Origin: Variovorax paradoxus
Lineage (GTDB): Bacteria; Pseudomonadota; Gammaproteobacteria; Burkholderiales; Burkholderiaceae_C
Assembly (NCBI RefSeq): GCF_022009635.1
Contig: NZ_CP091716.1
Location: 5,725,501-5,789,500, forward strand
DNA length: 64,000 nucleotides
Reading direction: 5' to 3'
The translations under genes were made by a program, and so were the position numbers. Positions 30,460 through 33,621 of this stretch are shown here, one piece after another; position 1 is the first letter of the stretch; each line of letters starts with the position of its first letter. The notes beneath the pieces are model-generated. The model made no database searches. It was given only the letters and a program-made list of their open reading frames with translations, and had not been told where the DNA came from.

Positions 30460-31575
30460 ATGAATCCCCTCGAAGTGCTCGCCGGTATCGAAACGCAGAC
30501 GCTGCAGCCCCAGGCCCAGCGCACCGACAGCGAGGGACGCTTTCCACGAGAGACGGTCTCTGCGATGGGCCAGGCCGGCCTGCTGGGGCTGGTCTCGGCC
30601 ACCGCCGTCGGCGGCCAGGGCCTGGGCCTGAAGGAGGCCGCGCAGGTGGTGTCCCGCATCGCGCAGACCTGCCCTTCCACCGCGATGGTCGTGTGCATGC
30701 ACTACTGCGCCACGGCCGTGCTCGAACAGTTCGGCCCGGAAGCCACGCGCCGTGCGATTGCCGAAGGCAAGCACCTGAGCACGTTGGCCTTCTCCGAAGC
30801 CGATTCGCGCAGCCATTTCTGGGCGCCCACCGGTACCGCCCGCGCGGACGGCGCGAACGTGGTGCTCGACGCCCGCAAGAGCTGGGTCACCTCCGCCTTC
30901 GAGGCCGACAGCTACGTGTGGTCGAGCAAGCCGCTGGCGGCCGAAGGCGCCAGCACGCTGTGGCTGGTCGATGCGAAGTCCGACGGCCTCAGCCAGCCCG
31001 GCCGCTTCGACGGGTTGGGCCTGCGCGGCAATGCCTCGACACCGGTCACCGCGAAGGACATGCGCATCGCAGCCAGCGCCCGGCTCGGCGAGGACGGCAA
31101 GGGCTTCGACACCATGATGGGCGTGGTGTTGCCGTGGTTCTCGGTGCTCAGCGCCGCCTGCTCGACCGGGCTGATGGAAGGCGCACTGAGCCGCGCCATC
31201 GGCCATGTGAGCCAGACGCGGCACCTGCACCTCGATTCGTCGCTGGCCGATCTGCCCACCATCCGCGCCTACCTCGCGCGGGCGCGCATCAAGACCGACA
31301 TGGCGCAGGCGCTGCTCGACGACACCGTGGCCGCCATCGGCGCGGGCCGTGCCGACACCATGCTGCGTGTGCTCGAAGTGAAGGCTGCGGCGGCCGAGAC
31401 CGCGCTCGAGGTCACCGACATCGCGATGCGCGTGTGCGGCGGCGCGGCCTTCCGCAAGGAAGCGGGCATCGAGCGGCTCTTCCGCGACGCGCGCGCATCG
31501 AGCGTGATGGCGCCCACGTCGGACGTGCTGTACGACTTCATCGGCAAGGCCATCACCGGCCTGCCGCTCTTCTGA
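30460..31575 (+). CDS. Acyl-CoA dehydrogenase-like flavoprotein in sel operon
   Basis: A 371-residue protein of the acyl-CoA dehydrogenase fold: helical N-domain to ~120, beta domain (LAFSEADSRSHFWAPTGTAR, KSWVTSAFEADSYVWSS) to ~225, helical C-domain with RVCGGAAFRKEAGIERLFRD. The catalytic Glu of the classic YEG motif is not evident; the region reads SSVMAPTSDVLYDFIG, as in flavin monooxygenase-type relatives. GGAGAAAG precedes the ATG. It lies 34 bp after selA and starts a three-gene insert before selB. The reaction is unknown; a link to selenium chemistry is inference from position. Confidence 0.8.
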   Translation: MNPLEVLAGIETQTLQPQAQRTDSEGRFPRETVSAMGQAGLLGLVSATAVGGQGLGLKEAAQVVSRIAQTCPSTAMVVCMHYCATAVLEQFGPEATRRAIAEGKHLSTLAFSEADSRSHFWAPTGTARADGANVVLDARKSWVTSAFEADSYVWSSKPLAAEGASTLWLVDAKSDGLSQPGRFDGLGLRGNASTPVTAKDMRIAASARLGEDGKGFDTMMGVVLPWFSVLSAACSTGLMEGALSRAIGHVSQTRHLHLDSSLADLPTIRAYLARARIKTDMAQALLDDTVAAIGAGRADTMLRVLEVKAAAAETALEVTDIAMRVCGGAAFRKEAGIERLFRDARASSVMAPTSDVLYDFIGKAITGLPLF

Positions 31576-31589
31576 GAAGGAGCCGCGCG

Positions 31590-32453
31590 ATGCCGCATCA
31601 GCAGACACTGATCATGGGCGCCGTGGCCTACGCGCCCAAGGTCGTCACCATCTGGGAAGGCTTCAAGGCCTTCTTCGTGAAGAACGGACTGGCCTTCGAC
31701 TACGTGCTTTATTCGAACTACGAAAGCCAGGTCGAGGCGCAGTTCGACGGCACGCTGCACCTGGCCTGGAACTCGCCGCTGGCCTGGGTGCGCGCCGAAC
31801 GCATCGCGCGCAGCCGGGGCCTTCAGGTGCAAGCCGTGGCCATGCGCGACACCGACTGCGACCTGCGCTCTGCCATCGTCGTGCGCGCCGACAGCCCCGC
31901 GCAATCGCTGACCGACCTGCGAGGCAAGACCATCGGGCTGGGCGCGCTCGATTCGCCGCAGGCCACGCTGATCCCGCTCGACCACCTGCGCACCGAGGGG
32001 CTGGTGAAGCAGCGCGACTTCCAAGCGCGCCATTTCGACGTGCTCGGCGGCAAGCACGGCGACCACATCGGCGGCGAGCGTGACGCGGCCCTCGCGTTGA
32101 TGGCCGGCGAAGTCGATGCCTGCTGCCTGATCGATGGCAACCACCTGGCCTTCGGCCTCGACGGCACGCTGCCTTCGGGCAGCACGCGCGTGCTGGCGCG
32201 CACCGGCGCGTACGACCACTGCAACTTCACCACCAGCCCGGATGCGCCGGCCGCGCCGGTCGACCGCTTCGTCTCGCTGCTGATGGCGATGCGCTGGGAC
32301 GACCCGCAGGTGCGGCCGCTGCTCGAACTCGAAGGCCTGCGCGAATGGCGCAACGGCCGCACCAGCGGCTATGCGCTGCTCGAACGCGCGGTGGACGACG
32401 AACATTTCTACGACGGCGATGGCCGCATCACCAACCCCGACTATCGATATTGA
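31590..32453 (+). CDS. PhnD-like binding protein without signal peptide
   Basis: A 287-residue protein of the phosphate/phosphite/phosphonate-binding (PhnD, type 2 periplasmic) fold: MGAVAYAPKVVTIWEGFKAF, the LHLAWNSPLAWV ligand-loop region, DLRGKTIGLGALDSPQATL and GEVDACCLIDGN. It starts directly with the first strand and has no export signal, so it should be cytoplasmic. GAAGGAG sits 9 bases before the ATG. Possible roles are intracellular oxyanion binding or delivery to SelD. A second, exported PhnD homologue lies at 36813. Confidence 0.75.
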   Translation: MPHQQTLIMGAVAYAPKVVTIWEGFKAFFVKNGLAFDYVLYSNYESQVEAQFDGTLHLAWNSPLAWVRAERIARSRGLQVQAVAMRDTDCDLRSAIVVRADSPAQSLTDLRGKTIGLGALDSPQATLIPLDHLRTEGLVKQRDFQARHFDVLGGKHGDHIGGERDAALALMAGEVDACCLIDGNHLAFGLDGTLPSGSTRVLARTGAYDHCNFTTSPDAPAAPVDRFVSLLMAMRWDDPQVRPLLELEGLREWRNGRTSGYALLERAVDDEHFYDGDGRITNPDYRY

Positions 32454-33621
32454 GTCGCTGGGCCTCGACCAGGGCGCCCTGCTGCTCATTCGCCGCGCGC
32501 TGGCCGAACGGCCGGTGGGCGGCGAACTGCGCGTGCGCGGGCAATCGCCGGACTGGCGCATGCACCTGCAGGCGTGGTGCCGCGGCCAGGGGCATCCGCT
32601 GCGCTTCGAGGCAGAGGAAGCAGTGGTCACGCGCGGCCCGCATGCGCAGGGCCGCTGGCTCGGCGCGCAATCGACCGGCCTCGCGCAGGGCGACGCCAAC
32701 GGCGCACCCGCCGAGGACGCCGCGCCCGGCTGGGGCCTGGCGGCGCGCGGCGCCACGGTGGAAGCCGGCAGCCCGCCCTTCTTCTTCGCGCTGCACCGCC
32801 GCGACGAGCTCTGGGCCGCGACGGCCGGCGAGCTCTACCGGCAGGCCGCGGCGGCCCAGTGGGACCCGGGCACGGCCATCGACTGGAACGCGTCCTTCGA
32901 GCTGCCCTCCTCCGTGGAAGCGGCCGTGGTGCAGGTGATGACCTACCTCATCGAGAACGAGAACGCCGCGCTGCTGGTGCCGGCGCGCCACCTGGGGCAG
33001 ATCCACCCGCATTTCCGCGAAGTGCTGCAGCTGCTGGCGCTGCAATGCGCCGACGAGGCACGGCATGTGGAGGTGTTCACGCGCCGCGCCACGCTGCGCG
33101 GCAACCAGCCCGCGCTGTCGACGGCCGGCGGGCAGGCGTCGCTGCGCACGCTGTTCGACGCGCCCGATTTCTCGGTCGCCACCTTCCTGCTGGCCGTGCT
33201 CGGCGAAGGCAGCTTCGTGAACCTGCTCAACTTCCTGCAAGCGCATGCGCCCGACCCGGTGACGCAGCAGATCGCGCGGCTCACGGCGCGCGACGAGGCG
33301 CGCCACGTCGCCTTCGGCATGGCGCATCTCGAATACCGGCTCTCGGTGCAGCCCGACTACCAGGTGCGGCTGCGCAACGCCATCGAGATTCGCTACGACA
33401 CGCTGGCCGGCACGGCTGGCCTCAACGAGGAAGTGTTCGATTCGCTGGTGCTGCTGGCGGCCGGCGAGTTGTCCCCCGCCGCCATCGCGCGCGGCCATGC
33501 GGCCGTGCAGCAGCTGCAGCGCGACATGGCGGCCGGGCGCCGCGCCCGCCTCGCGCGGCTGGGCTTCGACCGCGACGAGGCGCAGCGGCTGTCCGACCTG
33601 CACACCCGCAACTTCATGTGA
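32419..33621 (+). CDS. TusA-like domain fused to ferritin-like diiron domain
   Basis: About 400 residues. Residues ~9-75 resemble TusA/SirA (IDIESLGLDQGALLLIRRAL ... LQAWCRGQGHPLRF), but the catalytic CPEP is replaced by DQGA. From ~165 the chain is a ferritin-like helical bundle with ligand-type motifs IENENAALL (E179), DEARH at 212-216, GEGSFVNLL, and DEARH at 292-296. These would bind a di-iron or Fe/Mn centre of an oxygenase-type enzyme. The start inside the previous gene (35-bp overlap) is my best choice. I know no characterised protein with this architecture; function unknown. Confidence 0.7.
   Translation: MAASPTPTIDIESLGLDQGALLLIRRALAERPVGGELRVRGQSPDWRMHLQAWCRGQGHPLRFEAEEAVVTRGPHAQGRWLGAQSTGLAQGDANGAPAEDAAPGWGLAARGATVEAGSPPFFFALHRRDELWAATAGELYRQAAAAQWDPGTAIDWNASFELPSSVEAAVVQVMTYLIENENAALLVPARHLGQIHPHFREVLQLLALQCADEARHVEVFTRRATLRGNQPALSTAGGQASLRTLFDAPDFSVATFLLAVLGEGSFVNLLNFLQAHAPDPVTQQIARLTARDEARHVAFGMAHLEYRLSVQPDYQVRLRNAIEIRYDTLAGTAGLNEEVFDSLVLLAAGELSPAAIARGHAAVQQLQRDMAAGRRARLARLGFDRDEAQRLSDLHTRNFM

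Follow-up and report, generated by a model that had tools for sequence, protein, structure and literature searches.

Two described systems are among the closest to the one treated here, a cassette of three genes (g1, g2 and g3; together, the trio) between selA and selB in a 64,000-nucleotide stretch of Variovorax paradoxus DNA (RefSeq assembly GCF_022009635.1, contig NZ_CP091716.1, positions 5,725,501 to 5,789,500; "the window"). The first is the module Rv1679-Rv1680-Rv1681, which is present in tuberculosis bacteria. It encodes FadE16, a protein resembling a substrate-binding protein (SBP) and the radical S-adenosylmethionine (SAM) protein MoeX (NF049984, NF049985 and NF049973); its first two genes are homologous to g1 and g2 and stand in the same order, and a radical SAM domain is found where the window trio has a diiron domain. 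Rv1680 has been annotated as a putative phosphonate transporter component (PMC8562490, accessible part), and no functional study of Rv1679-1681 was found in the accessible parts of the open-licence literature. The second system is described in a preprint, the accessible part of which proposes that corrinoid gene clusters of anoxic microbes, the type I mlp clusters, recover selenium from methyl-selenides, and reports such clusters also in some organisms without known selenium traits (PMC10418091). The logic proposed below for the trio, recovery of selenium from methyl-selenium compounds, is the same; however, the mlp route is anoxic and corrinoid/methyltransferase based, and none of the trio's protein families is named in that part of the text.

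The trio appears to be new to the literature. No description of it was found in the open-licence literature searched, subscription papers, including the original selenoneine report, lying outside that search, and the accessible parts of three selenium comparative-genomics papers (PMC5322559, PMC5029168 and PMC13188914) do not mention it. The evidence presented here indicates that the trio is very probably a selenium module.

The trio as a unit

When 84,980 species genomes were scanned with g2 only, 84 relatives appeared, and the 80 best loci were retained (loci and genomes are cited below by L and G numbers). At all 80, g1 precedes g2 on the same strand, with a gap of -4 to 440 bp (median 11); g1 is a fragment in L048 and is cut by the contig start in L051. 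A g3 of at least 350 amino acids (aa) follows g2 at 73 of the 80 loci, four of these 73 running to the contig end. Among the seven loci without a full g3, four are cut by contig ends (L023, L044, L065 and L080), L048 carries a g3 fragment, a radical SAM gene takes the place of g3 in L051 and L061 has neither g3 nor a radical SAM gene. As judged from record titles, the loci are spread over Betaproteobacteria (including Nitrosomonas), Planctomycetota, Myxococcota, "Deltaproteobacteria", Actinomycetota, Chloroflexota and one acidobacterium. The trio is a real unit and, because the same three genes are found together in other phyla, their grouping is not a product of chance.

No fourth conserved gene emerged. 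Outside the sel-linked group, clusters of neighbouring open reading frames (ORFs) are common to at most six loci (Nitrosomonas-type kin included), and a Pfam scan of 38 of the 81 picked neighbour ORFs, a crude picking that includes some doubtful ORFs, gave no family in more than two. The only widely shared neighbours are sel, fdh and transporter genes.

Two decayed trios were seen. In Pararobbsia alpina (L048, 9649-11115) the g2 ORF is intact and only in-frame fragments of g1 and g3 are left, while G132:C23:33480-33821 holds only an N-terminal g3 stretch with a stop; selD is present in both genomes.

Placement beside selenium genes

At 17 of the 80 loci, as well as in the window, the trio stands after selA and before selB. 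Genes for a TIGR04553-type transporter also stand inside the sel operon at L027, between the trio and selB, and L065 reads selA-g1-g2 up to the contig end. Other placements involve other selenium genes. In Hydrogenophaga (L040, L041 and L043) senB and selD enclose the trio, with senA, egtD, egtB and a TIGR04553 transporter nearby; the L041 SenA and SenB proteins score 515.7 and 430.5 bits against NCBIfam cut-offs of 420 and 300, respectively. L046 has the trio followed by selD, with no senB match. Both in Streptomyces tibetensis (L083) and in the actinobacterium of L131, where the trio is only 34-39% identical, it is found behind selD-selA-selB. On a plasmid of Miltoncostaea oceani (L009), g1 and g2 without g3 cluster with a radical SAM gene opposite selB-selA-selD; this gene is related to Rv1681 (225.5 bits, cut-off 380). 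The L009 region (9214-18859) also holds relatives of the TIGR04282/TIGR04283 "arsenosugar" glycosyltransferases, below cut-off, and a DUF2515 protein. In all, 23 of the 80 loci are sel-linked, plus L009 and L131, and 15 of the 23 encode a TIGR04553-type binding protein in the flank.

On a 90-row tree built from g1+g2, the selenium-linked placements fall in five separate places, with six state changes, a repeated and independent linkage to sel or sen genes; this is a quick tree with long branches at L083, L009 and L131, for which L046 was assigned to the senB-selD group and short contigs, L023 among them, were scored as unlinked. The rows nearest to the window are from Variovorax. These placements bear on the idea that the trio handles sulfur or another non-selenium metabolite and rides in sel operons by chance. 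The 57 of 80 loci without sel genes in the examined flank would fit that idea, as would the high background of selD and the indifference to selD of the mycobacterial homologues (3 of 8 genomes vs 38 of 78), both discussed below. Five separate placements beside several kinds of selenium genes are, however, hard to ascribe to chance in our judgement, and we regard this explanation as improbable.

The selenoneine operon, senA-senB-senC(selD), offers a further comparison. In contrast to the three Hydrogenophaga loci, where the trio separates senB from selD, these genes are direct neighbours with no trio between them in G009, G010 and G015. Across the eight distinct trio genomes with SenB over its cut-off, the two genes are thus adjacent in three, are separated by the trio in one (G011) and stand on separate contigs in the remaining four. 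To our knowledge, the known selenoneine pathway needs no trio-like genes.

Co-occurrence with selenium genes

Fifty of the 80 trio genomes were tested, 48 of them without sel genes in the examined flank. Rather than occurring mostly in genomes that lack selD, the pattern that the original prediction had set against its own proposal, the trio is accompanied by a selD over the cut-off in 48 of the 50; the misses are G013, with a selD fragment at a contig edge, and G034, which has selA. Together with the five separate placements beside selenium genes, this distribution supports the proposal itself, that the trio serves selenium metabolism. selD is present in 24 of 25 Betaproteobacteria-type trio genomes (background 0.74, P 0.005), in 8 of 8 from Myxococcota/"Deltaproteobacteria" (0.64, P 0.03), in 4 of 5 from Actinomycetota (0.68, P 0.49) and, in the even samples with centres and the G132 fragment excluded, in 11 of 11 (P 0.013, G442 included though without g3); these P values ignore kinship and use groups formed from record titles, and one genome stands in both sets (as G182 in the even samples and as G040 in the other). 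Of the nine g2 genomes in the Actinomycetota sample, eight have selD, among them G442, G589 and G492, the exception being G550.

selA and mnmH each exceed their cut-offs in 29 of the 50 genomes: 11 have both, 18 only selA, 18 only mnmH and three neither, so that 47 have a known selenium use (selA and/or mnmH). SenB is over its cut-off in 9 of 61 genomes searched, one counted twice (G040 = G182), and no SenB was found in the window's own genome at E 1e-60. The trio accompanies any selenium use, whether selA only, mnmH only or both, and would therefore act upstream of SelD, at the supply; we consider action upstream of or at SelD probable.

The three genomes with neither gene (G003 and G045 with selD, G013 with the fragment, none with SenB) bear on a second alternative, in which the trio is a fourth user of selenophosphate that builds a new selenium-containing or selenium-binding small molecule, g1 and g3 being tailoring oxidases and g2 a carrier. 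The position within a biosynthetic operon, between senB and selD, agrees with this, as does the exchange of diiron and radical SAM domains on a shared N-domain (see below), which is as in biosynthetic pathways. However, 47 of the 50 genomes already have a known selenium use, no enzyme for selenium transfer (SenB- or SelA-like, for example) is part of the trio, and the three exceptions, one with only a selD fragment, are metagenome drafts of unshown completeness, for which reason they were rejected as evidence for a new selenium use. We hold this alternative to be unlikely, if less so than the chance explanation above.

A third alternative assigns the trio to the disposal or buffering, in the presence of oxygen, of excess reactive selenide or selenols. 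Such a system might be expected to show presumed oxidases next to selD and a candidate selenium importer, and to occur in few selD genomes of one order (Burkholderiales). Oxidising SelD's own substrate next to SelD would, however, be futile, and no additional gene, for instance one for an exporter, is widely shared among the neighbours (no Pfam family in more than two of the 38 of 81 neighbour ORFs), which makes this the least probable of the three.

In the Nitrosomonas-type genomes G022, G023, G028, G032, G035, G036, G039 and G041, the selD matches lie in open frames some 730 aa long, a length that probably reflects fusion of SelD to a further domain. In G041, mnmH adjoins this frame.

Proteins encoded by the trio

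The best NCBIfam match of g1 is NF049984 (Rv1679_FadE16). At the catalytic Glu column of the short-chain acyl-CoA dehydrogenase (SCAD) type, the C-terminal EGT motif (EGTSE in the alignment with the human enzyme), the 26 g1 family members compared have Ala (22), Gly (3) or Ser (1). An ordinary β-oxidation acyl-CoA dehydrogenase (ACAD) of the SCAD or medium-chain (MCAD) type was rejected for g1 on the apparent loss of the SCAD-type Glu in 26 of 26.

The AlphaFold2 model of g2 has a predicted local distance difference test score (pLDDT) of 93.5, and its Protein Data Bank (PDB) neighbours are PhnD and PtxB. As originally predicted, g2 would have no signal peptide: in the model, the first strand begins at residue 7, leaving no room for a leader. 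Because the protein begins directly with this strand, it should stay in the cytoplasm and is presumably cytosolic. All 40 members compared have H156, H210 and C211; SPQA replaces the STSG oxyanion motif in 38 of 40, an apparent loss of that motif, and the PhnD His column, which we take to be a ligand position, is Arg in 36 of 40. Scores against TIGR04553 (44.9 bits) and TIGR03431 (40.8 bits) are far from the cut-offs of 250 and 261.1. Thus g2 shares its fold with PhnD/PtxB and the TIGR04553 "selenate" binding proteins but, unlike them, has an HGDH segment and an invariant Cys211 and lacks a signal peptide. Given the missing signal peptide and STSG motif and the scores below cut-off, g2 was rejected as a transport binding protein of the PhnD, PtxB or TIGR04553 type; the first two features also led us to reject phosphonate uptake by the trio.

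The C-terminal part of g3 matches AurF marginally (29.8 bits, cut-off 29.6) and its N-domain matches TusA below cut-off (16.4 vs 28.6 bits). Among 35 g3 members, AurF is found in 30 and TusA in 19 by Pfam at E 0.01. Candidate diiron ligands (E179/E181, E213, H216, E263, E293 and H296) and the C-terminal tail HT(R/K)NFM are present in all 35. The g3 model (pLDDT 93.2) has R2lox, ADO and VlmB as PDB neighbours, with modest TM-scores of 0.34-0.51 by query length. A helical diiron fold and ligand residues are therefore common to g3 and the AurF/VlmB/R2lox/ADO oxidases, from which g3 differs in its TusA-like N-domain, its invariant tail and its marginal Pfam score. The shuttling of selenium that the original prediction had entertained finds no support in the TusA-like domain, and a sulfur shuttle of this type did not hold: no member has a Cys at the CPxP place (0 of 35), which we take to be the TusA motif position, and 7 of 35 have Ala instead of the other Cys. 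With this apparent loss, an unconserved second Cys and a TusA score below cut-off, a TusA-type persulfide or perselenide shuttle was rejected for g3.

The mycobacterial sister module

The window g1 and g2 fall short of the Rv1679 and Rv1680 families (409.5 and 224.4 bits vs cut-offs of 600 and 400), and selA and selB are the immediate neighbours of the window trio, with no radical SAM partner there. In a scan that covered the 80 loci but not the window, only L051 has an Rv1681-like match. A profile comparison nevertheless matches the Rv1681-type N-domain to its TusA-like counterpart in g3 (hhalign E 0.00012, probability 55%), while all 26 control comparisons gave E 0.038 or worse and a probability of 1.4% or less. 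Pfam TusA on Rv1681-type proteins is only suggestive (E 0.086 and 0.2 in two of three, none in the third). The pairing suggests that a similar N-domain is joined to a diiron domain in one module and to a radical SAM domain in the other.

Rv1680-type g2 proteins over the family cut-off were found in 8 of 78 genomes of Mycobacterium, the genus of G550. G634, the sole genome of this set with a below-cut-off g2, has selD. In these small numbers, the window type of trio tracks selenium and the mycobacterial type does not.

A module on a mycobacterial plasmid (L010, 4330-15850) stands with deiodinase-like, AhpD/CMD-type and glutaredoxin-domain proteins, a CcdA/ResA-like pair, a methyltransferase with distant similarity to ArsM and a radical SAM protein whose nearest family, matched below cut-off, is TrsS. 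Several of these neighbour families are selenoproteins elsewhere.

Organization of the Variovorax locus

The features of the window are listed in Table 1. The operon on the plus strand runs from fdh genes with a selenocysteine insertion sequence (SECIS) through fdhE, selA, g1-g2-g3 and selB to the selenocysteine (Sec) tRNA. The layout was correctly read from the sequence: three genes of one orientation between selA and selB, all on the plus strand, with gaps of 34 bp (selA-g1) and 14 bp (g1-g2) and a 35-bp overlap (g2-g3), and with ACAD-like, PhnD-like and TusA-like/diiron family calls that the Pfam matches bear out, the TusA match lying below its cut-off. The g3-selB gap is 13 bp. Because selD is on the minus strand, it is outside the trio operon, and the TIGR04553 transporter set lies beyond it, divergent from selD.

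Table 1. Features of the selenium locus in the window (window coordinates)
Feature	Position	Strand	Evidence
SECIS of formate dehydrogenase (fdh) gene	23679..23737	+	Rfam RF01989, 69.7 bits
fdhE	27931..28977	+	TIGR01562, 237 bits
selA, directly upstream of trio	28974..30425	+	TIGR00474, 575.2 bits
g1, ACAD-fold flavoprotein, 371 aa	30460..31575	+	Pfam ACAD N, M and C domains
g2, PhnD-fold SBP-like protein, 287 aa	31590..32453	+	PF12974, 100.4 bits
g3, degenerate TusA-like N-domain and AurF/R2-like diiron domain, 400 aa	32419..33621	+	AurF, 29.8 bits
selB, directly downstream of trio	33635..35542	+	TIGR00475, 480.4 bits
selC, tRNA-Sec	35560..35651	+	Rfam RF01852, 76.2 bits
selD, longest ORF (SelD match from residue 41-43)	35671..36828	-	TIGR00476, 425.6 bits
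TIGR04553 "putative selenate" ABC (ATP-binding cassette) transporter, binding protein	36729..37673	+	366 bits, cut-off 250
PhnC-like ATPase of TIGR04553 transporter	37684..38496	+	TIGR02315, 205.5 bits, below cut-off 266.1
PhnE-like permease	38493..39332	+	TIGR01097, 205.5 bits, below cut-off 216.7

By eye, the TIGR04553 binding protein starts with a signal peptide at about 36810 (listed start 36729). A putative second permease-like stretch follows the PhnE-like permease inside ORF 38402-40138, and two PhnE-like matches are found at 11 of the 17 selA-trio-selB loci. The whole transporter (36729-40138) is a candidate selenium importer. According to the accessible part of a 2026 review, a specific transport system of high affinity for selenium has yet to be identified in any prokaryote (PMC13188914).

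A model of trio function

The best overall explanation, one we hold tentatively at somewhat below even chances, is that the trio is an accessory, oxygen-dependent module of selenium supply or salvage. A selenium compound would enter the cell, probably through the neighbouring TIGR04553 ABC transporter, or arise within it as a methylated by-product. The g2 protein, with a binding-protein fold kept in the cytoplasm, would hold this compound, and oxidation by g1, the ACAD-fold flavoprotein, and g3, the diiron protein, would cleave its C-Se bond. The oxidised product might then be reduced by thiols to selenide, which SelD would use for Sec, selenouridine or selenoneine. The central step, in which oxidation would free selenium from an organic or methylated compound, is suggested by the enzyme folds, the oxygen use that they imply, the neighbouring importer and the corrinoid methyl-selenide precedent, and agrees with the invariant diiron ligand residues of g3; we give it slightly less weight than the explanation as a whole.

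Several points weigh against this model. In 57 of the 80 loci there is no selA, selB or selD in the examined flank, some flanks being short. The unity of the trio is not absolute: L061 and G442 carry g1-g2 without g3 in the examined flank (18 kb in G442), and the order is g3-g1-g2 in G589 and G492. selD is common in the background (177 of 240 Burkholderiales genomes, 72 of 112 in the phylum of the Myxococcales draft and 135 of 198 Actinomycetota genomes, that is, 64-74%), and because of this co-occurrence with selD alone is weak evidence, with a modest enrichment; it was not accepted as proof of a selenium role. selD is found in 3 of the 8 Rv1680-type Mycobacterium genomes against 38 of 78 in the background, which gives no link. 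Only 5 of 240 Burkholderiales genomes have the trio (one a fragment), compared with 177 that have selD, and since so few selD-positive genomes carry it, the trio is not needed for selenium use. Oxygen use is a prediction from the folds. Finally, an organoselenium-degrading enzyme in a selenoneine operon would have to spare selenoneine.

In the boldest reading, the trio would be a widespread route, so far undescribed, that depends on oxygen and supplies SelD with selenide, an aerobic equivalent of the corrinoid salvage of methyl-selenides. A cytosolic binding fold would hand the selenium compound on to a flavoprotein and a diiron oxidase, and a sister module would have swapped diiron for radical SAM on the same TusA-like adaptor. 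We consider this reading doubtful, although better placed than any of the three alternatives.

Implications

How bacteria specifically acquire selenium is an open question, to which the trio gives a direct and testable entry. It adjoins genes for two selenium uses, often near a candidate importer, and the genomes that carry it include a third use. Moreover, the exchange of diiron and radical SAM domains on a shared domain provides a handle on the role of Rv1679-1681.

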